Assembly: GCF_032854445.1 (NCBI RefSeq)
Contig: NC_088301.1
Coordinates: 57,672,512-57,736,511 of the forward strand
Length of the DNA stretch: 64,000 nucleotides
Origin: Liolophura sinensis
Lineage: Eukaryota; Mollusca; Polyplacophora; Chitonida; Chitonidae
Direction of reading: 5' to 3'
The notes under the pieces: model-generated
Told to the model about the DNA's origin: nothing
Database searches by the model: none
What the model saw: only the letters and a program-made list of their open reading frames with translations
Position numbers and translations under genes: made by a program
Shown here: positions 3,549-45,100 of the stretch, one piece after another
Position numbering within the stretch: the stretch's first letter is position 1
Layout: the number at the start of each line of letters is the position of its first letter

Positions 3549-4391
3549 ACCTGGCAAAGAATAAGGCCATCAAATGCAAAATCATTTTGAGATTTCTGCG
3601 CTGCGCATTTATAGATTCGGTTTGCTGTAGACTGTACTGCTTTGGTCTCGCAAGACGCCGAAGCTTTGGTACGAACATTATGACAAGGATAAGGGTAGCG
3701 CAGGGAAACTTATACCGACACAGATGCTTGGTTCCACGAACTTTCGCTCCTTAACAAACAGAACCACTATCCAGGCTACCCAGACAGCCAGACAAAGCAC
3801 ACTGCAGGTCAGCAGCAGCTTGGTCTCGCCCAAATTCCGGGGTTCGCTCCTAAGGCCGAATGAGTAAAGCGCACAGAGAAACATAAGGAACATTACATAT
3901 GACATATACATGACAAAAGTGCGTTTTTCGAAGTTGCAGGCATAGAATACCTGCCGCTATCGGTGATTTCCGTCAGTAGCGTGGTGCCATTATCATGTGT
4001 TGATCCAAAACTGGGCACTGATGGCCACCTGGACGCCAAGCATGAACAGTAAAATGACGAAAGTGTTCAAGCGCGACACCTCTCCTCCCAAACCTACAGA
4101 GCTGTACTCATATATATTCATGCTTTCGTCAAGCAAATCGCAAAGCAAAGCGTATACGACATGCTTGTTAACAGGTAACGCAAGCCCACAGCTTACGTGC
4201 GACGCGTAAAACACAAATGTAGTACAGACAGAAAGAGTAGGATATCGGCAAGTAGAAGTATCAGTCCCAGGTCACGTTCTTCACCTTCAGAGACCTGGCA
4301 CACAGCCTACTGATGATGTACAGTATCAGGACCAACGCGCAGGTCACACCCAAGCCGGATATGACAACGACGACAATGGCCCAAGCAGACC
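3549..4391 (-). pseudogene. Frame-broken seven-transmembrane region of the triple-flytrap receptor
   Basis: This is the direct continuation of the last receptor exon. All seven helices of a class C GPCR core can be picked out, but not in one frame. TM1 (EFVGSAWAIVVVVISG) is read only if one copy of a 17-bp tandem duplication at about 4405-4440 is ignored. TM2 (LILLLADILLFLSV) starts near 4264 in another frame. TM3 to TM4 (DESMNIYEY ... FVILLFMLGVQVAISAQFW) occupy 4214-3996 in a third. TM5-TM6 (MYMSYVMFLMFLCALYSF; NLGETKLLLTCSVLCLAVWV) run 3955-3681, and TM7 (ATLILVIMFVPKLRRL) at about 3705-3655 is shifted again. The tail ends at a stop near 3549. I see no small introns that would repair the frame. 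Either the region is decaying or this stretch is misassembled. Helix identities are confident; which indels are real is not. Confidence 0.75.
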
Positions 4392-7300
4392 CTACAAATT
4401 CGCCGGTGGTCTCATAATAGCGGTGGTCTCATAATAGATCATATCGCCGTAAAGTCCTGCCTGGCTGAGCCCCATGATAATCTGTTCAGAGGACAAAGGA
4501 TTGATGCAATCGCAGTTTACGCCACATTCGGAGGATATCGGGTACCTACGCACGTATCCAAACGCGTCATAAAATTCAAGCTGAACCCCAGGCTCCATGC
4601 GTAGCTTCCCATCCCACATCGCTACCTGTGAATCAATAAATTAAAAGGAGTTTAGCACTTAGTCTTTACATGGAAGAATATGGTTATGTTCTTGTATCCA
4701 ATCACTTAGCGCATTAATGCCATATAATAAACATTTAATTTTATACTTTGTCGACACACATGTAGAGCGTGTAATCAAGCATGTAATCCAGAGCGGTTGT
4801 TAAAAGTGAGTGATATTTTATATAAAGTGGCCGGTTTACATCGTTAAATTGAATTACAATCCAAGCGTAAAGGTGAATGAATTGTGATTTTCGCGCTTTA
4901 ATGTCATGAAAACTTCGGTACATAATTTAGTTTGTAACCTAATTCTTAATTCACATATTTAGAATCGCTTCATGAAACATTCGTAGGCCACGTATACGTA
5001 GGCAGAAGAAAAATAATCGGAGTGGAATTAAATGTCCTCTGAAATCAGACAGGAGCTGGTGGTGGCCAAGTGGATAGGACGCTTTTCTTTCAGTCGGTAA
5101 GGCACAAGAACCACGGATTAAATAACGGCCTTAGACCCGGAATTTGTGGATTCCCCGGCGCAAACTGCTCGTCGACTCTCCTGTGACCATCCGTGTCGCT
5201 TAGAAACATTTGATGAAAACCACTTGTCTTCCACCTCAATGCGGTGTGCATATCTATATGTCATATAAGGGAGGAAGTTGCCAAGCCCACTTGCCCAAAC
5301 GTTTCCACGCATAAATTTTCTCCGCTATAGATAATTAAATAAATCATGACAGTACTGTAGGTGGTACATACTGCAAGTGTCTGACTTCAAGACTTACCTT
5401 AGTGTACCCCATGGACCCATTCCTCATCCGGCGAAAGTTCTTCACATCATATATCCCCGAGGGCAGAAAACAGTTGAGCTTTTCTAAAGCCGTCACCTTC
5501 CCGGCGTCGCTTAGGAACCTTGTCTTCCTGGTAGCGGATAGAATCCCCTCCGTAAAGGTTGCGGAGTCTAGCTTTGCCATATCAGCACACAGACCAGCAC
5601 CTGATGTACAGGTCTTCAGGTAAAAGTCATTAAACCCATGCATCAGTGAATCAACAGTGGATATAACCTTGGCTACACGGTCCTTTGCCTCGGCGTCTCT
5701 GGTGGGTTTGTCGCCAGTAATGAAGTCGTCAAACCACGGAAGAATACTAACATTTGAAGGTTGCAGAGTCGAGAGGTATCTCTCAAAAGATTTGTGAGAT
5801 AACTTTGGTCGCTCCACAAAAAGCGACCCTAACGCCACGGCCGAGTTGTTGTCAACCCAACCGAACTTTCGGCCTGCATTTACCCAAACTCGTCTTAGTT
5901 TCTTTTCATTCACCATGTGGAAAAAAGACGTGCTGTTCTGGAGGTTGAGCAAAGTAACAACGACGTTGTCTGCTCGATTTCGGTACAATGAGTTGTAGGC
6001 TAAATCTAGACTATCCTTGTGAGAAGTTATTCTATAAATCCCCGCTATACAGATGTCCCTTTCAGAGGCAAGTAGTTTCAATTTATCTAGTTGATGGAGA
6101 TACTCAGGTTCTGTGGAAGTGACTATCGATATGTATGTCCAGTTGTTCTTCGTAAGAATATCCGCCACAGCCTCTACTATACCCACGTTGGATTCAGCTG
6201 TTCCTAACGCCGTCGGATATTCCGACAGTGTTCTCATCGGCGTCATCACCGCGCGCTTGTACCGTCCTAGGACTTCCGCCATTTTCCAGAATACTGGCGC
6301 ATCATCGTAACCCACGTATCCTATCACCATTCTGGGGTTGAGGTCAGCTGTTTTCCCCAGTGTACTGCTGTAAGTTTCAGTACAGGTCTCAAAATTTATA
6401 ATCATTTGCAGTACTCGGTCTGGGCTCTGGCAAGAGTCAATAATCAGAGAACCTATCGTGACATTCGGCAATATCTCTGGATAACGCGTGTGGATGTTTT
6501 GAACAGCAAAATGAAATCCTTCAGCGTCGAGATAGCCATCAGGATTGAACCTCCCGCAACTTAGCTGTGTGTCAGAGGAATGGTGAATAGGAAACACACC
6601 GATCACAACGACATCACCTGGAGTATACAGGTACTTATCTCCGGAAGTGAAGGCACCTGAGCAGTGTTCGCAAGAAGGACACCATCCCGAGCATTCGGAT
6701 ACGGCCGATATCATTTCACCTTGAAAGTTGTAAGACATAACTTCAGAAGGCTCCAAGATGACTTCACCAGTGCTGTGAAACTTCCCCACCTATAAGATGA
6801 TAAGAGTAGTATTACGGTACAGCAGTACAGTGAAATTATCAAGTTTCTGTTATTATTTGCCGCCAACCACATACATCTTCAAAGAACGTATTATAAGGAT
6901 ACCGTTTCATGTTATTTAGTATTTTGAACAAATCAAATCCTTAAATTTCTAATCTTCTCGACGACAGGCTAAGTCAGCTGTATGCTTTAAAAGAGAGTTC
7001 CGTCTCATTACTTATAAACCCTAAAATGTAGTTTCATCACATTTATCTCTCTCCTTTCTCATAACAAGGTTAAAACTCTCTTTCAATCCAGTTATTATTA
7101 TTATTACTATTATTTTCCATACAGAATACAAGTTACCAGGTGCATAAAACGATTTCATACAGATAGTTTATTTTTCGCAGACAGTTTTTCATGCCCACAC
7201 AACCAACAAATTTATGATCTTAGTGTTGAAAGAATAGAAAAAAGGAATACTTCAACAGCTAAAGAGTTCATTTGCAAAATGTTACCTTTGTGAAGATCGT

Positions 7301-10300
7301 GTCTTCTTCTGCATCTAGCTGCACATTTACAATGTCAAGGGGAAGAGTGATGTCACCCTCTCTGATTGTCGATCGCAATATACGGGCTATGTCACAATTA
7401 TCCAAGTGATTTTGACACTTCTCGTCAAAAATAGTGCTAATCATCGTAAGGAGGCTATCGGTGACATCTATCACATAAGACGATAGATCAGCTGATTCCT
7501 CAATCCAACTCTCCCAGCATTCACTCACATCAGCAGGTGACGCACATTTTCCTGGGCAAACGTCCTTTTTCAGTTTTTCCAGCCAGGTATATCTATTAGA
7601 CCCCAGTGCTGGCATTTTCTTCAGGAAATTTTGGAAGTCTGCGTTTTTCGTCGTTTGGAGCTCAAGAATAACAGATCCTAAGCCAACCTTGGCTGGTATT
7701 TGGAGCAGAGCGTCTGCGTTCCAGGGAAAGAGGACAAAATGAAGAGCTGATCCATTGATGGCGTCGTGGACAAAAGTCTTGAGAAAGTCGATGGTAGAGT
7801 GTAAATCCGTCATGAGAATAACGGCACTAGACCGATCAGAATTACCCACAAGTGCCTGAGACACGAAAAACGGTTGCTCCTCATCCTCCTTCATCAGCAT
7901 GTGATTGGCGGCTAAGCATATTCCATTTTCTCTAAGTCCATTTTCAAAAGTGTGTTTAAATGACTTGTCGGCGACCTTTTCGGACCATATTATAGTAGGA
8001 TATGTCCACTGAAGGCTTTTCAGTAGGTTGGCGACTCGGGATGGCAAAATTTTTCCTGATAAAAGACCATTTTGACGAATCCCAACTTTAGTCAGGCTGA
8101 GCACAGTTTTGTCGGTTTTCGTCGTATGCTGCAGAGTGAAATCATCCTCAGGGAGTAATTTCACGTAGGCTATGACATCATGACTGCTAATTTTAAACGA
8201 CTTAGAGTCTGTCGCAGGGGTAACTTCACAATTTTCGAATGCATTAACTAATGATTGACTTTCAGGGTCAGTTCCAGGAGAGCCGACAGAAAAGACTCCA
8301 AGATCGATGTGGTCCAAATGACTCGCGTGACGCTGATTGAATGTGTATACAGCCCACATAAAGGCTTCGGAAGCAATTATATTTTCGTAGGACAGGCGTT
8401 TTTGTGAGTTGTGCATAGGGAAGAGTCCGCCAATGTATAGCTCTCCGGCTGACACAGCAGCTGGTTCCTGGCGATGGGTTGGTACACTGCAAACCGGACA
8501 TCCTTGACACTTTCCATCACACTTTGAAGGCGGAACCAAAGCAATTAAGTTTAACGAATCAAAATCGCCCATCCAATTGAAAACGTCATCTTTAAACACT
8601 CCAACCTGAAACAAAAAAGCTTTTCAAATTAACATTGCACGAAAATTTTCAAAAAGAGTGCTTCATGTGAGAATATTTGGTTTCAAACAGATAGTTATGT
8701 GAATACTGGCCAGTTACCACGAAATAGTTCAAACTTACTGGATCCTTGAACACCTAGTTATACCTATGTCACCTAATACCATTTTCAAACAAAGGTCATC
8801 TGGTTGTCGTGTGATGCAGGAAATGAAGAGGACCAAAACAAACAAAAAGTTTTTAGAAGTATACAGGCGACAAGTGAGGTTTTGACATACCGTGCTCATT
8901 GTACCATTCTGGTCGAGCACCTCAAGGCTCAAAGCTGTATTTCCTGAACAAATCTGTCTCTGAACCCAGCTGTTGTTAGCAGAAGACGAAAGGTTCATGT
9001 GACCAAGAGAGAGTCCACACGTCTGGAAGTTAAGATCTCCGCAGTTGTGCTTTTGAAGCACTTGTATCACGTCTAAGGTAATCTGAAAGCCATCCAGTCC
9101 TCGTCGAACACTTGTATGGCGTGCAGTTAGGTTAAAGTAAAATTCTAATTCAGACTGGCAGGAAGATTTGGACGGACATTTAAAAACGGCTTCCAGGAAT
9201 GCAAGACTACTGTCCTTTGCAGACAGTGCAGATTCAAAATCTGCTTGTAGGTCATCTGTAATGTTGACCACTTCCCGTGTGAAAAGGACAGGGACGGATA
9301 GATTTCCGGTGTTGTGTAACTTCTGCCTAGTGAATACGAGGTCCGGGAGGTCCTCCATTCCGGCGAAGATAAACGCAGCATCTTCAGGGTCTCCATCCAA
9401 AGCTATGGAAAGGTTTTCCGAAACAGTGCTGGCAATGACCAACAATCCCTTTGTGGGAAAGCTGCCGGCAAAAGCTTCTTGAACTGATGAAACCACGTGG
9501 GTCGACGATATGCAGATGCCAAAATCAGATGCTACTTTCATAAAATCGTCCGCCTCTTTTTGGGAATTACCGTCGTCTAAGTACACAAGGCTTAGGTGTG
9601 TCCAATCCAGCATCTCCAGTACTTTCCCTAATGCCTAAACATAAAACAGTTCTGAGCAGTAAAACACTGAAATGACAGCTTTTATACATTGTCCTCACGT
9701 GCTGTAACTTTTAATTATTTAATAACTTTGTAAATATTAATCTAGACGGTAATAAATCGTCAACAATCTGAATATTACTGTGTAAACATTATGATTAGAA
9801 ACTTGCAAAAAGTATAAGCATTGACGTACATGTATAGCTAAGAAAACCAATTGTCATTCTAGATACTTAACGTCATTTTAAGGACATACCCGGGCACGTT
9901 GTGCGGAAGGCGAATTAATGAATACGGTGGTCGTCTTGTCAAGTCTAGGTGTTTCTGTGGATGTGCCAGAAAACTGTACATGCAGGTATCCCATCAAGGA
10001 AAGGAACTCGTCTACCTGCTTCCCCACGGCTTCACTTGTGAAACTGAGGACACCTGAGACAAACGACAATTCGTCAGTTGTATTACATTAATTGGGTTGA
10101 TATACTGTCAATGTGATGCTATGAGTAAGTCTTTCTTTTATTAGGTAACATATAATAAGCAAGCCTACATTGTTATAACTAGTGATTTACCCTGTTTTAT
10201 CCCTTATCTTATATGTTCCTTTTGTGTGCCCAAGTGTTTCACTGATGTTGCAAGACGAACTGTTGTTTCATTCTAAGCCAACATGCCGTTTATTAATTTT

Positions 10301-12381
10301 ATTGACCTCTAAGTTGATTTGATAGACACGTTTAGTATTGGCGGCATATTCGTCCTGGTAGACATGGTCATACGGGAACTGACTTACGCTTGACAACATA
10401 GTATAACTTGGTTTTCACCCACTGAAATACCAATCCACTGTATCACGTCAGGTTTTACATGAATAATAGGACATAAATAACTTCAGCAACGTAATAAAGA
10501 ATAAAATATCCAGTGAAATGTAACTGTTATATAAACACCAATGAAATAAATAAATAAATTATGACGACTTAGCGGAAGAACACACACTGTTCTTGAATCA
10601 TGATCCGTGGCTTTTATATTGTGACTTAATCTAATCGTTTATGGATGTATTGTATGGTAAACTTTTAGGGTAAGCGGAGTAACAAGTTATGGTTTATTTA
10701 TATATTTCATTGTACCAGTAGATGTTTAATGTTGTACTCCAGCAATGTTAACTTTCACCACTGAGATCGGCTTCACAGCTCAGGAAACAGCATTGCTCAG
10801 CAATAAGCACCATTGTTCCTTATACGTTTAGTCACAGGATTTGAACCTGTGACTAAGTTGTGATTCGTTTATCTCATGCTTATAAAGGTATCATCAGATT
10901 CACTCAAGACTCAGTGTCAGTCGTAATTCCTGCCATATTTACCCTAACCCATTTCAATATTTGTACACACAATAACTGAGACTGAGCTCTGTGCTAACAA
11001 AGCCAAGCTCTCTAGGTAAAAAATTCAAATGACTATATATCGAGTGACTTTCTGAAGCCATGAGCATTTCAAGATACACGTCTTGATCATGCCTGTGTTC
11101 ACCACTGGACATCGGTCGTGTCAGCTAAGTACAGGAGTGTGATCGTGTTAAGGTCAATATGTGGGGCGTCGTGCTCTGGCAAAAGTCACAAGCGCACTTG
11201 TCGCACAAACCTCCGATATATGTTATTTTGGGGAACTCAACAACACATGCACATTATACAGAAAAGAAGTAAAAAAAACTGGTTCGTTTTTTTTTTAACC
11301 ATAAACGTTCAATGTGTTCACTGGATACACTGGCATATTAAACAGACATGGATGCTAATTAAGTTCCCTTAACAGCTACGTGAAAACATGAATATACGGA
11401 ATGAATAAACCAGTGGCTTTGTTTCGGGCAGACATTTCCATATTAAACAACGTAGGTACACATTAAGGTGGTAGATTGCTTCTATTTACAGATCGACATT
11501 TCCTGTTACATATGACTAATCCAATTAAAACGAATAGGTTGATATGTTTTGTGCTCTCTCACCTGCAAGGCGTTTTGGTGTCCGTGCTGGTAATCCGGTC
11601 CCGGACACAGCACCGGACAATATCTCCATAGCAAGTCTGGCTGACCCACATGTGTCGTATACCTCCAAACCTGCGAGAAACACAGAAGCAAGAAGCAATG
11701 TTGTTATCTATATTTTAATGCCTTATGCAAAGAAATACTTTGTATCTATTTATCTGCTGGAAGAGTATGACGTAATCGTTAATTATCTAGACGTGAATAA
11801 GCGTTTGTCATAGTTGCAGTGCATTGTATATAAATCATTAGTCAGTGTGATGTTTTAATTCGTCAGACCCATTCATTATCTGTGCATGACTTCGTGTAGA
11901 AGTACATGTATATGCGGTGTAGCATTGGAGCATATTCTCCAATGAAATAATTGTCTTCATGTTTTATATACTTATATTGCAATAAGTGCTGCACTGATGT
12001 ATTAATTGGCTTAACTTCAGTAAAATTAAAGTAAACATAGAAGTTAACATACATCATTCTGTCAAGCAGTCCAGAAGGAAATTAGGAAAGTTATCCTACA
12101 GCCTGAACAGTTGTATACTCACTGATGGCGCCAAGGTCGCGGTACTGGTCGCGGGACTTGAGAGAGTCGTAAGCCCAAACGGTTGCCTGGCCCATCTGTA
12201 CGGCTTCATAGTTTAGATCGTCGCAGGTTCCATTGGAATGTAATACTCGATGGAAGTCAAACAACATGATAACCCGTACATCGCCGGTAAGTTCCAGCAA
12301 TGGGAGCGGTTTTTCTGGCTGGGAATGGGTTCCACAAGCAAAGATAGAGAAGAGGAGACAGGCGGTCAGAAAGCAAGCCAT
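4392..12381 (-). CDS. Class C GPCR-like protein with three tandem Venus-flytrap ligand-binding domains
   Basis: Seven coding exons, read right to left: 12381-12123, 11670-11563, 10053-9890, 9634-8891, 8605-7286, 6789-5398 and 4625-4392. All junctions are GT-AG and phases match, giving 1406 residues to the first stop. The start ATG has a good context and opens a signal peptide (MACFLTACLLFSIFACG). Flytrap domain 1 (about residues 30-425, with YDTCGSA) uses exons 1-4. Domain 2 (about 470-865, IGGLFPMHNS) and domain 3 (about 915-1329, VIGVFPIHHS) each fill one long exon. Each domain is followed by a linker starting VGxF or VAMW and carrying a short Cys cluster. In metabotropic glutamate-type receptors such domains bind small ligands outside the cell and drive a 7TM core. 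Here one domain is usual, so three is odd. Ligand residues of glutamate receptors are not evident, so the ligand is unknown. As assembled, the frame ends just before TM1 (see the next entry), so the product would be secreted. Confidence 0.85.
4405..4440. repeat. 17-bp tandem duplication that breaks the receptor frame
   Basis: The unit CGGTGGTCTCATAATAG occurs twice back to back on the plus strand. On the coding strand this duplicates the codons just before TM1. Because 17 is not a multiple of three, translation runs into a stop within a few codons. Taking one unit away on paper gives a continuous junction from the Cys linker into TM1. Confidence 0.85.
5045..5315 (+). repeat. tRNA-derived SINE copy in a receptor intron
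   Basis: It starts with a tRNA-like A-box stretch (GTGGCCAAGTGGATAGGACG). It shares several blocks in the same order with the copy at 55510-55870, including CTTTCAGTCGG/CTTTCAGCTG, GGTGTGCAT and TTGCC...CAAACGTT. It lies in the intron between the third flytrap exon and the last exon of the receptor gene. The 3' tail is missing or diverged. Confidence 0.6.
10834..10860 (-). other. T-arm-like hairpin (tRNA-related relic)
   Basis: A perfect 8-bp inverted repeat (GTCACAGG / CCTGTGAC) encloses a 7-base loop TTCAAAT on the minus strand. This is the size and sequence of a tRNA T-arm and contains a B-box-like GGTTCAAATCC. No D-arm, anticodon arm or acceptor stem surrounds it, so it is at most a SINE or tRNA fragment. 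It lies in the second intron of the receptor gene. Confidence 0.35.
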
Positions 12382-23254: not shown

Positions 23255-23880
23255 GTCAGTGGGTCCCTTCTGCTGCAGGTAAATCCAATTGGGATGGGAA
23301 CTGACCGGGTCTCTCCTACTCCAGGTAAATCGCATTAGTACCAAATTGGATGGGGCCGCACTGGGTCCCTTCTGCTCTACTAAATCAAAGTGGACGCGAC
23401 CTCAGTGGGTCCCTTCTACTCCAGGTAAGTCACATTGAATGTAACCTCAGTGGGTCCCTTCTACTCCAGGTAAATCACATTGAATGTAACCTCAGTGGGT
23501 CACTTCTACTCCAGGTAAGTCACATTGAATGTAACCTGAGTGGGTCCCTTCTACTCCAGGTAAGTCACATTGAATGTAACCTGAGTGGGTCCCTTCTACT
23601 CCAGGTAAGTCACATTGAATGTAACCTGAGTGGGTCCCTTCTACTCCAGGTAAGTCACATTGAATGTAACCTGAGTGGGTCCCTTCTACTCCAGGTAAGT
23701 CACATTGAATGTAACCTGAGTGGGTCCCTTCTACTCCAGGTAAATCACATTGGATGTAACCTGAGTGGGTTCCTTCTACTCCAGGTAAATCACATTGGAT
23801 GTAACCTGAGTGGGTTCCTTCTACTCCAGGTAAATCACATTGACTGTAACCCTTCTACTCCAAGTAAATCAGTTGGATGG
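23255..23880 (+). repeat. 45-bp minisatellite with splice-site-like units
   Basis: Ten units of exactly 45 bp lie in perfect register at 23401-23850. Diverged partial units flank them at 23255-23400 and 23851-23880. Every unit has a pyrimidine tract followed by CCAG and then GTAAGT (six units) or GTAAAT (four units), so each contains a consensus-grade 5' splice site. The length is 15 codons, so a frame stays open on the plus strand (repeating LSGSLLLQVSHIECN). I take that as a by-product of the repeat. Very high unit identity implies recent expansion or homogenisation. Confidence 0.95.
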
Positions 23881-24169
23881 GAACTCATTTCATTTTCAAA
23901 TCCGACTTGTGTGATTATATTGTCCCTAAGAATGACATCTGGTATTTACTGGGAAGATCCAGCCAAGAGTCGGCTAACAAAACGCTTTCTGAATAATAGG
24001 CCCTCGCTTCGACTGATCACGCGGCAGTCCAAGAATTCACCAGATAGTCAGCAGCCACAGAACTTTAAAGCAGACATGGCTTGTTCTAAGAAGTTTATGA
24101 TATATTGTGGTGCATGTAATGTGGATGTTTTCCATGCTGGTCTGGTCTGTAATAATATTACGATAAACT

Positions 24170-24340
24170 CGATAGTGGGAAGGTCTGTCAGCAACCTGCT
24201 GATGGTCGTGGGTTTCTGCCGTGCTCTGCCCGGTTTCCTCTCACCATAATGTTGGCCGCCGTTGTATAAGTGAAATATTCTTGGGTACGGCGTAAAACAC
24301 AAATGAAATAAATAAATAAATAAATAAATAAATAAACAAG
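24170..24340 (+). repeat. SINE 3' part with AAAT tail
   Basis: The core is GGTTTCCTCTCACCATAATG, then GTATAAGTGAAATATTCTTG, then GGTACGGCGTAAAACAC, ending in an (AAAT)n run. The same core, mostly in the opposite direction, recurs at about 28265, 28680, 46735, 50403 and, diverged, 55790. Confidence 0.75.
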
Positions 24341-30179: not shown

Positions 30180-33100
30180 TTACAGAACATAAACTGTTGT
30201 AGAGTGTAAACTAAGTAGATCATCCTTTGGCGACAACGCGTCTTTCTTGTCTTTCGATCGACTTAGATTTATCTTCTTTCCATTTAATCCAAAGACAGTT
30301 CTGACCTACAAAAAACAAAACAGAGGTTGTTAAAACAGGCATGGGGTTTTGGAGAAAGGTATTATACTTTACAATAGTCTGNNNNNNNNNNNNNNNNNNN
30401 NNNNNNNNNNNNNNNNNNNNNNNNNNNNNNNNNNNNNNNNNNNNNNNNNNNNNNNNNNNNNNNNNNNNNNNNNNNNNNNNNNNNNNNNNNNNNNNNNNNN
30501 NNNNNNNNNNNNNNNNNNNNNNNNNNNNNNNNNNNNNNNNNNNNNNNNNNNNNNNNNNNNNNNNNNNNNNNNNNNNNNNNNACCGGAGAGATGAAGCCCC
30601 CACAAAAGACACACATACCTGAGACAGAAGCTGGCAATACGAGACACTATCTCCACGAGGACTATCTAGTAAAAGACAGCCCTTTCTACTTCTGGCCCCT
30701 TGCTGAGGTGTTCCAGACACAAGTTCCACATTTACAAAATGGCAGACAGGCGACTTCAGGTTACTAGTAGAAGCTGAACCTTCCTTGGAGTCAGACGTGA
30801 GATACAAAGTCCTAGAGTGGAGAGACAACAGGTCCTCAGAAACTATTTCTGAGTTCAATGCGCAGTCTGTGAACAAACGCAGGCGTTTCCCTCTCAGACC
30901 AAACAGCGAGGCAGCCTGAAATGAAACCAAGTGTATTTTTTTGGTACGTGTTTAGGCTGCAATGCTGGTATTAAAGTACTTTAAAGTTCATAAATTCTAA
31001 ATACAGTCATATGATACAAGTAAGAACATTAAGCATTTTGTATATTTTTGAAATTTTGTATGTATTTTTAGGAAGTGAGCTTGCACGAAGGGCTTGGACA
31101 AAAATGAGAGCTGAAATGATAGGTGTAAATTTGGATTGCATATGTTATTCGCAAGATACAAGCGGTAAGCACACCATTTATGGGGACAGTCCTAAAGTTT
31201 TAGTGGCTTTGTTGAGCAACTTTCTCACTTCAACAAATGTATAATTTTATAAATAAAGACAGAAATATGTTTCCCAAAACATGTCAAGTAAGAGTGTGGA
31301 AACAGACGAGAATACTGAAGGCTTCTGAATCCCTAAGAGCTGGACAATGTAGACTTTCTTTAGCCAAACAGATGGTAAAGGGTATCTCGCATAAACAAAG
31401 CAAATTTAGATCATGGCGAATTCAGACTACAAATACACTTTCTACTTCTGGAGCATACGTGAATTTCACCGCTCAAAGAAATGACAAAAAAGTCTCGCAC
31501 TATGAGACCTGTAAAAGAGTGTTAATCTTACCTGGATTATCACCAAATCAGAGGTGAGCAGAAAATCTCCCTGAGGGTTTTCTAAGAGTAATGTTCCTTG
31601 GGTGCCTGTGGCGCCCTCTCCTGGGTTCAAGCCAACCAGCTCGATGTTGACAAATTTACAGTTTGGTATCACCCCACTGACAACGGGTGCTGGAGCTAGC
31701 CGAGCAGCCGGCCTAGATGCTGATGCTGATGCTGACGGCTTATTCTCTCCTGCATGCCCCTTCACAATAGTCATGTCCAACAGATCATTCTTCACCTGGG
31801 GCAAAGAAACAGGAACAAGACTCCATAAGTCTACCTAAATGCAAAGCGGCTGACCTAAAGGCCTAACCCAACAATAACCAATACACAGACAACTGAAAGA
31901 GCTTGTGGAAAACTTAATCTACTACACTGTATATTACAAACATCTCAAACCAACATGCAAAAGGCACAATAAGGGACTAGCCTAAGGGAAATTTATGAGC
32001 AATAGAGTTTATTTCTCATACAACCTGCTCTAGAATATCTCGCATATACAACTGTAGTCCTTTTCATGGGCAGAGGAAACAGTCAAACCCGCGAAAACAA
32101 GCTTTTGGAAAGTAACTCAGAAACTTTATTGCCATATAATATAATGTTGTATAGGTGGAAGACAAAGTGATCTGCAGCCACATGAAGCTTTAAGTAAGAC
32201 CACCTAAATGTTTCCACAAAGTGCTCTGTATTACTTTCTGCCACCACAGGCCGAGAACCGTGTGGCTCCTGCTCTTTTGATATTAGGGGTATATGTAAAT
32301 CTATTGGGTTACTCAATCTGGTAGTGGGATAAGATTACCTCAGGAAACCATGTTTTTGTGTCTTTCTGCCTCTTACCAAAGAGTTAACAAAAGGAGGCCA
32401 AACATTACAATGAGCATTACAATTAGTTTAATGTAATACACGAGTAGAGTAACTCAGGAAAACCCATTTTGTGTCAAAATGAGCCTTTAATTACACTACC
32501 TGTGTTTACACTGAAGTGATTCTTTGACGAACTGGCTCATTAATAATAGAGTAGATACCTTGATCTCAGCTTCCTGGACGATGGTCTGTGAGTCACTGGG
32601 AACAGGGTAAGGTTCAAGAGGTTGTTTGATGGTTGAAAAGATGAAGTCACCATGGTCACGGATAATCTTTGCTAAATTCTCAGACGTCTTGTAATACACA
32701 GTGATATCATCTGCTGGCATCAGCTGAGCCTGTTTGGACAAGAAGAAGTGAGAAATGCAATGACGTTATCTTGCAGTTGGTTGATTATTGGTTGTAATTT
32801 GCCAAGAAGAGTCTTAAAAAGCAAACTATGCAAGCATTTGTACACATCTGCATTTTCATATCCCAAACACTCAGAATTTCTGATAAGCCAGCTGGTGGAA
32901 TGACGTTGTTCAAAATTAATGCTCTTAAACACAGTGTGTGGAAAACAAAGGGTTTTCTGTGCATGGCAATTACAGTAGTGTTTGTAGCATCTGACAAACA
33001 GCTAAACAGCCAAGAAGTAGTTTCGTTCCTCTGACTTTACACCAAGGCTGCAGCATGGCGTTTACCTTTTTCCTCAGTTTCTGGATGCGGTTGATGACTT

Positions 33101-36100
33101 CCCGGGCAATTCCCTCATCCAGCATGGACTGGTCTGGGGTGACATCAAGCAGGATGATCAGCTGACAAAACAAAACAAATATGGCAACAATTTCGGCCGG
33201 ACTTATAATTTTGTAAAGGAATTATCAGCCACTGTTGCTACATATCCTACATTAAGGTCAGTTTAAGCTGGAGTTGAACGGAACCTTGGCATGACAAGTA
33301 ACAAACAGTGCCCATGTTACATGCTCAGGATGGCAGACAACATTTTCCAAGTTCCTTGTGATATACAGGCATTATTACACAATTGTACAAGTACACACTT
33401 ACATCCCCCTCTCCATGAGCCTCAAACTGTGCAGTGGCATCCCCGCCTGAAGTGTCAAATGTATACACCAGCTTGAGGTCACCCTCCACAAGCACATGAC
33501 CTCCAACTGTTATTTCCCCAGTCTGCTGGAAGTTCAGCAGCTCCTCATTGGTCAGATTTGAGATGACTTTGGACTCCATGATCTTCTTGAAATCTGCCTT
33601 GAGTTTAGTCCCAAGTATTTTGTAGTCAGGCTCAGCTTTAAGGCGGATGTTGTGTTTGACCTTGTCAGTTGTGACTGTCACCTTCCTCACATTTAGTTCC
33701 TGTAAATGGTCCGAAGTGGAATAAAGTATAACAAATACAGTTTGCAACAAACAAACCAATATGTTTCAGTTCAGTCCACACTAGTACTTCATCAAAATAA
33801 TTCTATAGCAGACTAAAACTATAAGATGATTCATTATGCCTATTATATCTTCCTGTCTTTTCATGAAGAAGTCTGAAAAGCTTGTCCCTGTAGCTTTAAG
33901 CTCTTATATGTATGCATACGGCCATATCATAAAGTTCATAATATGGAGAATAGAAGTGACCACTGCAATTAATCAATCTTTTCGCATGTTTGCAAGGTGT
34001 TTATTTAAGCATGTTCTGAAAGCATTATCCTGTGTTGACTAATAAAATTACACTTTTTGTGACATCCTCAAATGGACCAATCCAGTTTTGTCTTCAAAAT
34101 CAAATAAAAAAAACTGCAAAAATTGCACTGAAAGTTACTCTTCCATATGCGAAAATGTTGCGGAATCAGGGTATACCCTGCTAAAAGATTACCTCTAGTA
34201 TGTATGAAGAGAGTGATTTAATGTTGTTGACAGCCTGTTCATCTTGATGGATAACAACAATCTCCTTCAAGGGATACTGTAACCAAACACAAGTACCAAT
34301 ACATTTAACCATTTCACTGCTCCAAAGCAATGAAGATAAAGACAAGCAGTTTTTGTACAGTTTCTGATTTCTACTCAACAACATGGAACAGTGACAAGTC
34401 TTTATTATCCTTGTTGTTCAGTTAGGCAAATATATGGTTTATAAATCAAAAAATTGCTGAAAAGAATCATTTGTCTTGTAGGTTCCAAAATAGATGTATT
34501 CAAGAAGTAAACTAAGTTTTAGTTAATATATACGGTCTCTAATCTCTTGAATGGAGCATTACTGCTCAGCCCTCAATCTCAATATACTGGCCTTTTTCAA
34601 GTAACAGCTTACAGAGAAATACATAAAGGTACATGACATACCTTGACAGGCAATGTTTTCCTGTCACGCACAACTCTTCCAAGCTCAATAACTGTTTGCA
34701 TCAAAGCCACCGCACTTTCAGTTTCTGTGTTGATAAGGGTCTCCCTATAATAAAGGCAGGACTGGTATGAACGCAATCACAGGTTAGATATTATACAAAT
34801 ATTGCATCCTCAAATTTTTAAAGACTGTTATAAAAACCCCAGCAGCACACAAATCTTAGCCTTCAATGTCCATAATTTAGAACTGTACGCTGTGACCAAT
34901 CTGAATTTTGGAAGTTTTTGTGTCTTACTTGGCCTCTGGGAGCAGCAGGAAGTGGATGCTTCTGTAGTCCTGTCCTTTGGTGGCCTCACTGTCCACCAGG
35001 TGCCTTAAGTTCTGATACATGTGCTCTGTGAGGAACGGGATGAAAGGGGCCTGAAAACACAGCACAGACACATGATACTGAACAGAGTTCAATTAGTTTT
35101 GTATTACTGTTTTATGATGAAATATAGCAATCACAGAAGGCTGGTTAAGTATACAGGTGACTGGTTAGGTGTACAGGTGTCTGGTTAGGTATACAGGTGA
35201 CTGGTTAGGTATACAGGCGACTGGTTAGGTATACACATGACTGGTTAGGTATACACATGACTGGTTAGGAATACAGTGATTGGTTAGGTATACAGGTGAC
35301 TGGTTAGGTATACACTGACTGGTTAGGTATACAGGCAACTGGTTAGGTATGCAGGTGACTGGTTAGGTATACACATGACTGGTTAGGTATACACGTGACT
35401 GGTTAGGTATACAGTGACTGGTTAGGTATACAGGTGACTGGTTAGGTATACAGGCGACTGTAGGAATTCACAGCACTTCACACTCTACATGTACTTGTGC
35501 ACATAATGATACATCTATGTCATATTGCATCATTGTTGAATAAAATTCAGTACAAAACTATTTGTAAGTAAAGCAAACTCTAAACGAACTGATGCTTTAT
35601 AAACACTAAAAGGCATTTTACAAACTGTAAGATCACACAAACTTCTTCTTATACAATGTATTTAACACAACATTTATTAATGTACAAATTACATTGAATG
35701 AAAATCTAATAAATGAAAGGAATAGTAATGTATGAAAAGTGTTTACACTGTGGTTTATCCTACTGATTATGCTATTTAATACTTAATTTCTTTGAAGTAT
35801 GATTCCTAGGCAGTTTGAACAATTTAAAACAACCAAGAAATCCACTAAGAGAGGGTTGCTGACTTACCATCACTCTGATCATGGTGAAGAGGACCGAGAA
35901 GAGTGTCTCCAGAGCTGCCTGACAATCCTCAGCACCACCATCACCCTGACAACAGACACAGCAAGGAACTTGAGCATACAAGTACACAACATTACCAGGT
36001 AGGACCGACATCTACCAGTCATCCTCACAATCTTATAATCAAATATCACTTTTACACATGTAGAAATGGCAGGTGAAGGGTTTCCTTTTTTGTCATAATG

Positions 36101-39100
36101 AGACTCTTCCGTCACTCTAAACACTTTCTTGTACCTGTGATCTCTATTCATAGCAGATATATACAGAGCAGACACAGGGACAGGCCACATCTTACCTTCA
36201 GTCTCTTCCTGTTCATTCTGACATACCAGTTGGTAAGCTGGTCCACAAATCTTACCAGTCTTGGCACAACTGTGTACAGACGATAAGCTGAAGAAAAAAA
36301 AAAGATACAAATAATTATATTTTTAAATCAAAGTTTGTATTTGTTGAAGAATAGTGCGACTATAATATTAATTTCATATATCATTTTATTTTTTGCTACG
36401 AAGATATCTCACCTGCCATTTCCTGCTTAACAAACTTGACGAGGGATTGTGTGAAGGACAGAATCCACCTGTCCATGTAGTTCCTGGAGACAGTCAACTT
36501 TGCCTCATTATATCTCAGTTGGATGTCATCCTCCTAACAAAGAAAAAAAAAGAGATAACTTTTTCAGAAGTAATATATACCACTGTACATATACTCACGA
36601 AAATTTATTTCTAAGTTTGAAAAAAGTCAACAAGTAAACCATATTTCCATGCCCCCAGTCATCTGGAAGAACAAGTTACATCAGCCTGTAATTTGTCACA
36701 TCAAGAATAGTATACTATTCATTTACATTTCTTTCATTCTCACTTAAATGGGTGTTCACTTATAATGCTGACATTTCTTTCATTCTCACTTAAATGGGTG
36801 TTTATTTATAATGCTGACATTTCTTTCATTCTCATTTAAATGGGTGTTAATTTAAAATGCCGGCATTTCTTTCATTTAAATGGGTGTTCATTTATAAAGC
36901 CAAGGAAGTCACTGATCTTAACAGGTATCATGGGTATTTTGATACTATTGTTGACCCAAGATCAGTATGTTATGAATTCATCCGAGGTTTGGTTGTATAT
37001 GTCCAGTTTACCCGCTCTAACCGCTCCACATTTTGCATCAGGAATCTGTAGGCGTTGTACCAGGGCAGGAAGACATCCTTCAGCACATCACGAACACCAT
37101 CCCTCTTAAACTTCAGGCTCTCTGCTCTGACCACAGGCGAGTTGATCAGGTAAAGCCTGTCATAAAAAATATCAATGTACAGCTGTCATGGAGGAATAAA
37201 CTTAGTTCTATATAAATAGTTTAATGCACTTAAATCTTAAGGCTCTGTCGGCTGGCAGACCTTCCCACATGTGTCCCGAGAAGAAACCAGCATGAGCTGG
37301 ATTTCAACTCACAGTGACTGCATTGGTGAGAGGCTCCTGGGTCAGCCCACATGATTAAGATGTATCACTAGTATTGCCAGTACAACAAGTCTTTTCAGTT
37401 TTCAAAATGATACTTAAAACCAGAAAGTCATTCATTTTGACAGGTTTCTGGTAATTCCATAAGTTTAAAATTCTTTAGCTTTGTGGATTCGATGCCAACT
37501 TATTTTATTTTGTTAACCTGTTGTGGTAACACACTATACCATGTACCTGGTGTAATTGGTTTTTGTCCACAATGCAGGTCAAGCATTGAAAAGGTAAACT
37601 CTTGAGGAAAATTCAGCACATAGTACATATTATTGCTGAATTGATTACCTTAGAGCATCAGCTCCAAAATCATCCACCACACTCATAGGGTCTGGGTAGT
37701 TCTTCTTCCGTTTGCTCATCTTTGTACCGTCTCTGGAAGAATAACCCACATCCAGTCTACTCTGACAGTAATGTATGATTATGCATAAGGCAATAGTGGT
37801 GCCAACTTCTTACTCTGAAGAGACATGTTTGTAGCCTTGGTACAATCAATGTATATAGTAACTGTATACATTTTTCTCTATGGCTCTTGATACACGAAAA
37901 TTGCAAAATAAAAATACTGAATCTTTAGTTGCAGCAGGTTCTAAAAGAATAATAGCTACAAGTAGTAATCTGCTAAAAACTGTTACCATTGATCACTGCT
38001 TCCTGTTGAAACTTACGCTGCTAGCACAAGCCCGTTCACAATGAGGTTCTTGAAAGGGGGTTTACCAAACAGCAGAGTTGAGACAACCAGAAGGGTGTAG
38101 AACCTATAAACATCAACAATTTCATAATGAAGTGGCATTAGAAAATACATTCATTTCTTGTGTCACCATTGCCTAAACATAATGTTTATCTCAAACCCAA
38201 AAATGTAAATCCACTTGCTCAGGCCCAGTCAGACCAAATAGCATAATTCAAAAGCAATGTTTGAATCTGAACTTAGTACATCCCCAGAACTTATGCCTGC
38301 CAACAATGATACACACTAGCTTCTCTGAACTCTGAACACAAAGAAATGGTGTTAACCATTTAGGAACTGAGTGACGAAAATAAATATTTGCTACACATGT
38401 TCTAAAGCAATTAAGCCAATTTTTTTCATGTGGTAGCTTGAACTGAGAATCTTGTTCTCAAAGCCAATACAAAGGTATATAAATTACAGACTGTTAACAC
38501 AGATAAATTTGTTTTAAGAACATTTTTCACTTCTCTGACTACACTCAGGCTTTTAAACGGAGGAAATGGAAGTTCACTGCCCAGAAAAAACCCACCTCCC
38601 TTCACCAGGTACAGGTGAAATGGGACAACTGACAGTAGTGAGGACACTACCATATCCCATCCATGGTCTCATAACTTGTTAATCATATCCATACAAGTAA
38701 CCTAACAGTTCAATACAGTTCCTACCATCCTCTGGTTTGATCAACGCCCTCAGCGATGAAATCTGCAGGGAAGCTGTCCTCGAACTCCTTCTTGTTCTCG
38801 AATGGGTAGTGGGCCTGAGCATAGGGCATGCTGCCGCTCTCAAACCAGCAGTCAAACACCTCTGTCACCCTCTTTAGCTCACCTTTACCCATCCTTGATG
38901 GAATAGTCAGCCCATCCACACTATGTGACAAAACACACCAACAGTTACACATCTTTCTAAGTATTTTGGAAGCATCAGGAAAGAATGTCTGTATATTGCT
39001 CTTGCCTTACCTGAATACATTCACCTGTCTTGAACAATTAAGGCAGTAAAACACACAATATATGAAGTCGGAGTCCAGACATGTAAGTTTGAATACTGTC

Positions 39101-42100
39101 TGTTTCATCATCATGGACATCTTGTATTACATGTACGACATGTAAGCGTAATGCAAATAAGTGGAAATGTGTGTGAAAACACCAAAATAGGACAAACTGA
39201 TTACTAATCCCTCCAAAGGCCAATGGCATATTGGATACCTTTCTCTGTGCAGATCCTTAATGTCTGCCTTTCCTGTCAGCTTCTGAAGTTCCTCTATAGA
39301 ACCAACACAGACCACCTGAGAGAACATACATGCAAGAGACACAAAGCTATCAGACTGTGGGAAAAAATATATTTTAACGCAACTGAAATATGCATTTTAA
39401 TATTAGGATCTTCAATCAACAGATTCAATTAGTCCTGTAGCAAACAAAGCTTAAATGGGTATTCTGTACTACACATCTCATACAAATATTACAGGATGAC
39501 TTGCAGGCTAGGTGTACATGTATGAAACCCACTACACACAGACTATCAAAATTATTGCAAAAACTGTACACTTGTAACTTAAGATTAATTTAAGAACACA
39601 GTCAAGTTATCTGGATTCACAGAGACAGACACAGAGACAGACTTCGGGAATATCAGATTACACTTCAGGCCCTGATGTCATGAAACCCGAGTTCAGTGAA
39701 TTGCTTGTTTTTTGGTTTTATTTTGACACTGTTTAACATGGAGTGTTTCTTGAAGAAACTTAAGTTGCTCAGCTAAGGAAAACACTTTTGCTTAAGCAAA
39801 AGAATGTTTAGAAGTTTTCTAACACCATGCTCTGCAGTTCAATCACTGCAGGTCGGTTGGCATTTGATACCCTGCTTACCTCTTCCCCGTCATCACTGAT
39901 CCACAACGGGATCGGGGTGCCCCAGTATCTGTTACGAGACACGGCCCAGTCACGCGCATCCCGCAGCCAGTTAGCAAAGCGCTTGTCTTTCACCACTTCT
40001 GGAACCCTAATAATTACAAAGTTAATTTAGTTATATCTCTCATTAGTTTATCAAACTGATTACTGCTTTACCTCCCGACAAAGTCAACTTTGAGGACGGC
40101 GGATTATTAACACCCCAATTTCACAGTTCTTACGTTGTAAAGCCATGATTACGGAGTGGCATCACACTGTATCTCTTTTCGGCGTGTCATCTTCACTTCA
40201 TTACTCAGTTATATCTCTTTTAGTGAACTCCAGTAACACAGCTGATTTTCTTTAAATTTATGTAAAAATAACCATAACCATATGTCATATGTACATGTAC
40301 GTCAGCCTATGTTATAGTGCACAGAATAGTAAGTTTAACTGACAACTTACATTACTTCACAAGATATAGCACTAACAGTGTGGTCTAATACAGGGATACA
40401 GAAATGTTGCTGACTGGATGCCTAGTCTCTGCTGAATTTTAGGCATGGAATATTTGTTCAAGTTTCACAACGGCTACCGATACAGGATTTAACCCAGGAA
40501 ATCCAATGTGCAATATCAGCCTTTATGAGTATCTTCACTTCTGCTGAAATGGGCTGTAAGTATATTTACCAGTAAGTTTTCTGGTTGTTCTCCAGTAACA
40601 GGCTCGTGGCTTGCTCCACTCTGACAAACCAGCTGGGAACAGCCTTGTAGATTAGCGGGGTGTCAGATCTGCAAATGTCAAATACACAGAGGATATGTAA
40701 TGAATGCCTTATTGTAAATTTATAGGGGAAAAAACCATTATGATTTAAACTTTTTGGAAACTGCGCCAACGTCTAACAGTGTAGTGATATCACATATATA
40801 GATCAAGTGAAGTGTCATCAGTACGTGACCAGCACATGGTGAAATATAATATAGTACAGACAAAATTTATTTACATAACAACTTTTTTATACCATAGTTT
40901 GCTTTATACAATACTTCATTTAATACGTTAATATTTATAACAAGAATATTACATTTTACTACAGAAAGAATTGCTGTCTAAAGAGGGACAAATTTCATGT
41001 GCGCTGAGTACACCCTGTGCAACTTAAAAAAAAACAAATTACAATTGAACTTGACAAAGGTTGAACAAATGAAACAGTCAACATAGCTGTAATGAACATG
41101 CATGTGAAAGAGACCACCCGATATGGGACCGATATAGACATCACATGCGATGTCTGTCTAGAATTTATTTTTAAGTTGTAAAAGAAAAGTATGCATGGTG
41201 CTTGCCATGGAGACCACTTGCCTTCCATAAAAATGTTACATAAGAGGTTTAAATTAGTAACTTCGTAAGATAAGTCATGACAAATCTTCATACATGCAGG
41301 TACTAAGTAAATCAATACAATCAGAGAGTAATACAATGGGCAGGCACATTTACAGCTCTGCATTTCCCTCCCTTCATGAGAGACTCGCTCAGACTTACAC
41401 CTTACCTCCAGCAGAATGGGTAACTATGTTTGGTGGTGCCCTGGTGCACCAGCCTGCCTCTCTCTTTCAATTTCTTTGTGATGTGCTTGTCAGCATCCTG
41501 TGGAATCATCATATTTATTGATATCGTGATTCTATTTTAATAAAATTATTTCCAACAACTTTGTAGTGAAAGATTTAGTGTAGCTGTGTTCTTAAGACGC
41601 ACAGGTACAGTTTCCACTGGGATAACATTACATTACAAGCTAAATTGTGATTTAAATGCATTTACAATCAATCTATATAGTACGTGCAAAATTTACCATA
41701 ACTTTAATTTTGAAATGCACTAGAATCAGCAGTTCTGAATCAATCTCACAAATTTTCTGCTCTATGAAGCTTAAATATTAAGTAAAGAGAATGTAACCAA
41801 AAATTTCAACTGCAGAAAATCAGATATTTATGAATATACACCACTATTTATGTAAAAGAAACTGTGAAATCTGACAAACTGATTGCCCCAGACAAAATTG
41901 CTGTTCCTGACAATCAAACTGATTGCCCCAGACAAAATTGCTGTTCCTGACAATAAAAACAATTGCACCAGACAAAATTGCTGTTCCTGACAATAAAAAC
42001 AATTGCACCAGACAAAATGATGGTAATATGATTGTCCCAGACAAAATTGCTGTTCCTGACAATAAAAATAATTGCACCAGACAAAATGATGGTAATATGA

Positions 42101-45100
42101 TTGTCCCAGACAAAATTGCTGTTCCTGACAATAAAAACAATTGCACCAGACAAAATGATGGTAATATGATTGTCCCTGACAAACTGATTATTCACCTTGA
42201 CATGTAAACCCCTGAAATCTGTGACCTCGTCCGTGAACTTCCCACTGGCATCCACAGGGCAGATCATGGCCATGTCTTTGGTGATGATTCCATGGTTCAG
42301 GCAAACACGGTTGTCATCCTTCAAACGACAGAACAACCTTGTAAAAGTTCCATACCACCTAGTCTATTACAACAATTAATGCCATCCCTATTTCAATGGT
42401 AAATCAATAATAACAAGTCGTCTTACATATCTGACAACTTTCTCAATTCGGGTAATTGACATTACCTATTGGTACTTGTACCAATAATGTCACGTTTGTG
42501 GGTCAAGGGAAATAAGCAATTGGTCAAGCCAGCACAACCTGGTCCAGTGGGAAGATCTCATTAATAAAGGCATTGTCATCAACAGGGACGAAATACGTCT
42601 ACACATGCTTGTACATTCATTAGACAGCCAGGTAAAGAACTGTAACCAGATATACCTCTCCAAAGTATGGTGCCTGGTGGACCACACCTGTACCACTCTC
42701 TGCGGTGACATAGCCATCTGTTAGCACCTGGAACGCTCCACGAGACTTCATCTGAAAAAATGACAGGTGTTGATGTAAGAGAATCCAAGCAGACTGCTTT
42801 CCAACCAGGTTAATGCATGAAGGACACTACGATAATTTCTGTAAGCTTGAATTCTGAAATACTAAGTCCATGTATTGGTTTGCTTAAGGTTATATTTGCC
42901 TGACGTAATAGGCTGGGTCACAATAACGATATACTACAGATCTCTTCCACTGGGTAAATCTGCATGTGATTTATCACCATGCCTGGAGACAAATAAGGAA
43001 GTTTCATGATTGTCAGTTCTTAGAGCATGACATCATTTGGGACTGAGCCCCTACCCCCTGCCGGAGAAAGCTTTAATTATAAACACCACTGGGAATTAAC
43101 TTACCCAGGTAAAGTACTCAAACAGCGGTTTGTACCTCTTCCCTTTAAGTGTGATACCCTTAAACCTGTAAAAAAAACATAACTAGTTAATTTAAATCTG
43201 AATACACACAAATATGACAATCACAGATCGCTGGATATACTTGTATCTTTTGACAAATTGTGCCCCAACCTGTCCAAACAAATACCTGCTGTATAAATAG
43301 AGAAAAAATCATACAAGCATGGACAAACTAACAACAACAAAAAACACTGTGAAAACTCATGTATAGGTATGACACAGGCTGCAGTTTTGAAAAATGGGTC
43401 GTAACACAAAGTTTAACATGACATGCATCACACACCAAAAAGACGCTGGATGCAACAAATTTGGTGAGTGGATGAAGTAATTCTGCCTACATTTAGTCAG
43501 TACCCAACCTTTATTTTACATTACTCTTACTTTTCAAGCATGGTGTATTCTTCAGGTGTTTTGAACAAAGCCTCCAATCTTGCTTCCATCATGATGTAAA
43601 CATTATTTGTTTCATTATCTGAAGACCAATAAAAAAAAGAAAAAAATCAGAAAGCACTTCATTCCATATGCAAGTAATTTGGAAAAAGATTGCAAACAGT
43701 AAATGACAAGACTTCTCTTCACATAATATTTAAATAATCTTAATTAAAATTATACAGTATCTTTGTATGTTAATAGAATTCCAGTGCTTTCAAAATGTTT
43801 CCAAAATTTGCCAATTCAAAACTGCAGTAGTTTACCTTTGACCTTGACATACTCTAGATCAGGATGTACACAAAGGGCAAGGTTACTTGGCAGAGTCCAA
43901 GGGGTCGTAGTCCATGCGATGACTGACACACCTGGATCCTCCTCCAAAGGAAAGTTCACAATAACTGCAGAAGAAAGACAAAACTAAAAGCTTTGTCATT
44001 CAACATAAAATTATCAATTGCAGGTTTAACCTAAACGTTTATGGATTTATACCAATTTAAAATGATATTCAGCTTCAAGTAAAAACTGTATAGATTATTT
44101 CAACACATATCAACATCAATGCAGAGCATGTTCAGTAACTCTAAAGACATTCAAATGACATATACATATACAATAATTTACCAGCTGGGTCCACCACATC
44201 TTTGTAGTTTTGACCAGACTCAAAATTGGAAAGTGGAGTGTTACAGGCAGTGGAGAAAGGCATCACCTGATTAGATAAAAATATGTGCAATTAGTATTTT
44301 TAAATCTACCATTAAAAAACAAATTACAAGCACTGTTGCCACCTTTCTTCATCCTCTCCATAGTGTCAGGTGTTTAAACTTCCTTTCAGAAAAATTTGCT
44401 ATTTCCAAATGAATCAATCTGTTTATAAACATACTGAATAAGATAATACTATCAGTTAAGTTGTTAAATATGTTTACAGTCATTTTATTGATTACATTGT
44501 CAATTTACTCAGATACCTGACAATTCAACTGAAAGGAAAAGAAAATTTAAAAAAAAAATAACACTACAGGCTGAAAAGAGCACATTTTTTTTTCTATCTG
44601 GGGGTGCCTGCTGCATAATTTTGCAATTTTTCCTAGCCATACATGTAAAGCCTGAAAACGGCAAAGCTGGCATAAATCCCTCAGTCCATCACGTCCTCCA
44701 TCTTTAACACCTTGTAATTTATTCGGGGGGTGTGATGCCCCTCAGCCAATGAGAGTCGATAAAACTGCCGGCTTGTTCGTGTAAACTTGGAACCTACGTC
44801 CAACATTCCAGTTTCCCGATCGTCAAGTGGAAAACGAACTGTACGGTACACTAGCTTCTGCGAAGAAGAGTTCTACCCGAAATGTACGAACTGCACTTCA
44901 GCGCTTTCTGACAGCAGCATCTTAGGTAAAATGGAGTCGCACACAGTGGATTTTGGCGCTGACTTTATTCATAATTTATCAACTTGAGGTACATAGTAGA
45001 ATTTTTTTTTTTATGGCATGCACCTGCGAGAATTTTTTTATGGCATGTACTTGTGAGGAAATGCATACTCTTTCAATGGTATTTGATATTTAAATTTTCT

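Follow-up and report, generated by a model that had tools for sequence, protein, structure and literature searches.

We describe a gene of the polyplacophoran mollusc Liolophura sinensis that encodes three Venus flytrap (VFT) domains in one open frame and is followed by a disrupted class C seven-transmembrane (7TM) region. The gene lies on the minus strand, at positions 12381-4392, of a 64,000-nucleotide stretch of NC_088301.1 (57,672,512 to 57,736,511; assembly GCF_032854445.1), here called the window; short coordinates refer to this window. Paralogues with the same exon design occur elsewhere in the genome. We propose, with a probability of roughly 0.6, that the gene belongs to a multi-VFT class C receptor family, that its 7TM region has decayed while its ectodomain stayed open, and that its product is probably a secreted three-VFT protein of 1406 residues acting as a binder, decoy or partner.

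Three flytrap domains and a disrupted 7TM region in one gene

Read from the window DNA, the gene consists of seven exons, bounded by AG/GT at each of the six introns and joined in a single frame of 1406 codons, of which 1329 run through exon 6 and a further 77 lie in exon 7 ahead of the stop. Exon 1 (12123-12381) contains the start codon, a signal peptide whose hydrophobic N-terminus can be read directly, and the start of VFT1, and ends in a GT donor. VFT1 continues through exon 2 (11563-11670) and exon 3 (9890-10053), both bounded by AG/GT, and is completed by exon 4 (8891-9634), which starts in phase 0 at a motif common to the first VFT of the paralogues. Exons 5 (7286-8605) and 6 (5398-6789) are phase 0-0 cassettes, each composed of a Cys linker and one domain, VFT2 and VFT3, respectively. 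The translated part of exon 7 (4392-4625) encodes the last Cys linker and the stop. A preliminary description of the window had proposed a single signal peptide and a splice-consistent frame of 1329 codons with three VFTs; both are borne out, the frame being somewhat longer owing to exon 7. Given how frequent stops are in this region, a stop-free run of 1406 codons has a probability of about 3e-33; a chance open frame was considered and rejected. Codon usage prefers the read frame over the other two in all exons scored (1, 4, 5, 6 and 7), and the codon signal is negative in every frame of the four introns scored.

All three domains are matched by the Pfam ANF_receptor profile. VFT1 (E-value (E) 5e-9) and VFT2 (E 1.4e-5) match part of the profile, the latter scoring 24.8 bits, slightly short of the 25.4 cut-off, and VFT3 (E 1.5e-15) covers profile positions 5-333 of 353. 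Two further matches to VFT2 come from VFT3 (E 4e-10) and from a paralogue's second VFT (E 2e-8), and VFT2 contains the two cysteines that are invariant in 17 aligned VFT domains (15 from paralogues and 2 from the window gene). When compared with solved structures, VFT3 matches mGlu3 (E 7e-19) and VFT2 by itself gets no further than E 0.019, with mGlu2. That three VFTs are encoded in one gene is confirmed. The nine-cysteine (NCD3G) domain had no Pfam match in the scanned domains of the three-VFT gene or in three paralogue 7TM exons; in its place, the linkers of multi-VFT genes are short and contain three to four Cys.

Class C helices had been expected to follow the VFTs. A recognisable 7TM region is indeed found directly downstream, but it is broken by 5-7 frameshifts and preceded by a stop and a 17-bp duplication. 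Searching the genome with the 7tm_3 profile yields a match at 3735-4079 (E 2e-10) with three stops inside. Frame-tolerant alignment of three 7TM exons of the family outlines a minus-strand remnant spanning at most 4386-3613, recognisable from TM1 to TM7, with 5 (plus three stops), 6 and 7 frameshifts; its score with one of these exons, from the paralogue G3, is 158, compared with 32, 37 and 33 for three shuffles. As controls, two intact 7TM exons of the family were aligned without any frameshift call, and there was none in three of four ectodomain alignments, including two of exon 5 and one of a paralogue against exon 6. The exact 17-bp tandem duplication is located at 4404-4437 on the minus strand, and the TM1 remnant that follows it sits in a different frame from the preceding linker. 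Both the duplication and the stop precede the 7TM remnant in the direction of transcription. Since its 7TM region is disrupted, the gene as read encodes no working G protein-coupled receptor (GPCR); the intact 7tm_3 domain expected of a class C GPCR is present in three paralogues and lacking here. In the 13.4 kb downstream, a scan for a further terminal exon encoding a linker and a membrane anchor returned only exon 7; of the four anchoring exons known from paralogues, the procedure recovers three.

The lesions are unevenly distributed. Six of them (five frameshifts and the duplication) fall within 1,013 nt (4625-3613), next to 3,987 nt of open exons 1-6. Under the assumption of uniform and independent lesions, the probability of such clustering is about 7e-5 with six lesions and 3e-4 with five. 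The long exons 4-6 were also counted separately, because exons had been chosen for being open, and this gave 1.4e-4 with six lesions. These positions suggest that the three-VFT ectodomain has continued to be useful.

Multi-flytrap paralogues in the same genome

The 609 Mb assembly was searched with the ANF_receptor profile, which lists 103 matches, and eight loci with VFTs in series (G1-G8) were examined. The assembly also contains a row of eight matches to a molluscan haemocyanin domain, a marker of a mollusc genome. Three of them, G1, G2 and G3, form a cluster on C10 (24.52-24.62 Mb) and each encode five VFTs in series followed by one open 7TM exon (7tm_3 E 2e-27, 2e-22 and 6e-36). Four further loci have two VFTs: G7, G4 and G6 on C7 near 41.6, 53.45 and 58.88 Mb, and G8 on C3 near 12.43 Mb. 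Their terminal exons encode a Cys linker and, judged by hydropathy, one transmembrane (TM) segment, and these genes look like anchored relatives without a 7TM region. Eight frames, taken from the two-VFT terminal exons and from sequence beyond them, had no Pfam match above cut-off, kinase domains included, the tails of these genes being not fully resolved. For G5, a two-VFT gene on C4, no end exon was found.

The exon design of the window gene recurs throughout these loci. Of 17 complete paralogue cassettes, 14 have a phase-0 acceptor and open with a VGsY-like strand and a Cys linker, the other three, which are the fourth VFTs of G1-G3, have a phase-1 acceptor, and all 17 have phase-0 donors. 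The three-VFT gene likewise has at least two VFTs in series on phase 0-0 exons. The phase-0 site that splits its first VFT, before an L.W motif, is shared with the first VFT of all eight paralogues. Signal-peptide exons were sought heuristically at the eight paralogue loci, and two of these loci yielded one.

Related sequences are also found outside the eight loci. Four places on C10, near 4.01, 4.70, 4.72 and 24.64 Mb, have 7TM exons related to those of the five-VFT genes and one VFT match each. Within C10:24548001-24567000, several VFT and 7TM pieces are spread over different frames, and two of the matched pieces contain stops; this relative is probably a broken multi-VFT receptor. It was tried as a lesion control, for which its pieces proved too short to separate frameshifts from introns.

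A tree of 25 VFTs, built without the first VFTs of the paralogues, groups the domains of G1-G3 by position, with support of 100/100 for the fifth, 100/99 for the third and 91/88 for the fourth VFTs; second VFTs group by position for G1 and G2 only (94/89). This grouping indicates that the VFT array is older than the copies of G1-G3, and the grouping cassettes have kept their order while identity dropped to 25-51%. To assess the ligand pockets, we scored S151, T174, D194 and Y222 of mGlu3, which we take to be contacts of its amino-acid pocket. All four residues are present in seven of the 17 complete paralogue cassettes (second and fourth VFTs of G1, fourth of G2, second and fifth of G3, second of G5 and second of G7), and three more deviate only by serine in place of T174. 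The complete set is found in none of the four single-VFT relatives and in none of the three VFTs of the window gene, where identities of 17-25% leave the alignment columns unsure. The further glutamate contacts scored, R64, R68, D301 and K389, are kept in 0, 1, 3 and 1 of the 17 paralogue cassettes, and because they are mostly absent, glutamate itself is not the likely ligand. From their sequences, the five-VFT genes look like receptors that combine one or two amino-acid sensors with several degenerate partners in one chain.

Two side observations concern other sequences of the genome. On C2, ten ANF_receptor exon matches lie within 0.75 Mb (10.75-11.50 Mb) with no 7tm_3 match listed there, and this run is apparently another expanded VFT family. 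Between VFT4 and VFT5 of G3, a repetitive stretch (L006 7023-7690) is open in several frames.

Proposed origin and fate of the three-flytrap gene

We propose that the ectodomain of this family expanded through tandem duplication of an exon, in most cases symmetric (phase 0-0), that encodes a short Cys linker and one VFT. In intact members, the ligand would bind to one or two VFTs that have an amino-acid pocket, degenerate VFTs would act as structural or allosteric partners in the same chain, and the last linker would transmit movement to the 7TM region. In the three-VFT gene, the 7TM region would have decayed while the three-VFT ectodomain stayed open. We infer that the seven exons are joined in a single transcript and that the product is secreted; if functional, it would serve as a soluble binder, decoy or partner with no signalling of its own. 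In a wider form, the proposal would be that molluscs possess a class C family with two to five VFTs per chain, generated by cassette duplication and with one or two VFTs retaining the pocket, whose members without a 7TM region comprise two-VFT single-pass proteins and a secreted three-VFT binder with a possible modulating effect on the intact members. We put this wider form forward tentatively, at slightly less than even odds.

The main rival to decay confined to the 7TM region is early decay of the gene as a whole, in which the ectodomain would still be open through short time or luck. The several breaks in the 7TM region are expected under such a pseudogene, the VFTs of the window gene sit on the longest branches of the tree, and the genome contains a second, probably broken multi-VFT relative at C10:24.548-24.567 Mb. 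Against this, the lesions are crowded into the 3' fifth of the gene, exons 1-6 and their splice sites are open, and the codon signal supports the read frame in all five exons scored; we consider a pseudogene unlikely, although it comes closer than any other alternative. Some results weigh against a decayed 7TM region joined to a maintained three-VFT ectodomain. VFT2 falls below the Pfam cut-off, and an AlphaFold model of it built from a two-row alignment had a mean predicted local distance difference test (pLDDT) score of 30 and was not used. The aligner called one frameshift in exon 6 against mGlu3, which shows that a single frameshift call can be spurious. The openness of the exons is partly the result of their choice, least so for the three long ones. 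The long branches, which leave the VFTs of the window gene without placement in the tree, would also fit relaxed constraint. Finally, the frameshifts in the 7TM remnant could in principle be assembly errors.

This last point leads to a different explanation, a working three-VFT GPCR in which assembly errors or a defective allele merely make the 7TM region appear broken. The remnant is recognisable along its whole length and the corresponding exons of paralogues are open, but at least five frameshifts and the 17-bp duplication would have to fall within 1 kb beside 4 kb of open sequence, and the assembly yielded no second copy of window 3600-4625. We regard a working receptor as improbable. Still less probable, to the point of being nearly negligible, is that three adjacent single-VFT genes were read as one. 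VFT2 and VFT3 do occupy one exon each and the junctions are known from DNA only; however, a start codon and signal peptide are found at VFT1 only, and the introns between exons 4, 5, 6 and 7 are short (285, 496 and 772 nt). Moreover, upstream of the acceptors of exons 5 and 6 the frame extends by 6 and 0 codons, with no ATG among them, so VFT2 and VFT3 do not resemble genes of their own, and separate secreted genes would need unseen leader exons. The paralogues also show the same series of VFTs. A three-VFT ectodomain that outlasted its 7TM region remains our preferred explanation.

The preliminary description had suggested either a multi-ligand sensor or a trap. With its broken 7TM region, the three-VFT gene fits a trap better, whereas a sensor fits the five-VFT paralogues. 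Chains of this type would allow flytrap cooperativity to be studied within one polypeptide, and the genes would illustrate how a single symmetric exon can serve to multiply an ectodomain. Where a functional 7TM region is lacking, family members would represent a natural experiment in how a receptor becomes a binder, either soluble or anchored.

Comparison with known proteins and neighbouring features

Class C receptors are described as dimers with one flytrap per chain, and in metabotropic glutamate receptors (mGluRs) this single VFT is combined with a nine-cysteine domain. The VFT profile of the present family has its best match in mGlu3 (E 4e-109), and its 7TM profile best matches mGlu2 and mGlu3 (E 6e-28 and 7e-28). 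In contrast to mGluRs, the VFTs number three (five in paralogues), the Cys linkers are short, a nine-cysteine match is lacking, and the 7TM region of the window gene is broken. By descent, the three-VFT gene is a class C receptor.

A class C VFT protein without heptahelical part is known from Schistosoma mansoni. SmGBP is a truncated mGluR with a Venus Flytrap module and a predicted glutamate site, and it is reported to bind glutamate (PMC3206071). Compared with SmGBP, the product of the window gene differs in having three VFTs, all of which lack the full set of four pocket residues. The receptor adenylate cyclases of Trypanosoma brucei are reported to have two VFT domains, a single TM segment and a cyclase domain (PMC6027212). 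The two-VFT paralogues share the layout of two VFTs per chain and a single TM segment, and the likeness is one of layout only, given that the cyclases are protist proteins with a cyclase domain and no 7TM region. Tandem VFTs in one chain are also a reported feature of the BvgS/EvgS sensor kinases; as these are bacterial histidine kinases, the likeness is again restricted to layout. Venus kinase receptors (VKRs) carry a VFT on an invertebrate single-pass protein and are defined by their tyrosine kinase (PMC3703292, PMC4026697). Membership in this group was considered and rejected: the three-VFT product stops before any TM segment, and the two-VFT genes lack a kinase match in the eight frames searched, within the incompletely resolved tails mentioned above.

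The preliminary description had regarded three VFTs per chain as a new arrangement. No animal receptor with several VFTs per chain is among the full-text literature matches listed, a body of text in which subscription papers and preprints are mostly not included; this does not prove that the family is undescribed. The arrangement is not unique to the window gene, as five-VFT 7TM genes and two-VFT single-pass genes are present in the same genome.

Upstream of the three-VFT gene, the window contains exons of a cytoplasmic isoleucyl-tRNA synthetase gene (31469-47160, minus strand). The tRNA-synt_1 and IARS1 ubiquitin-like domains of this synthetase score above their cut-offs, and DUF5915 scores just below. 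Repetitive stretches at 1979-2679 and 23329-24246 yield long open frames on both strands.

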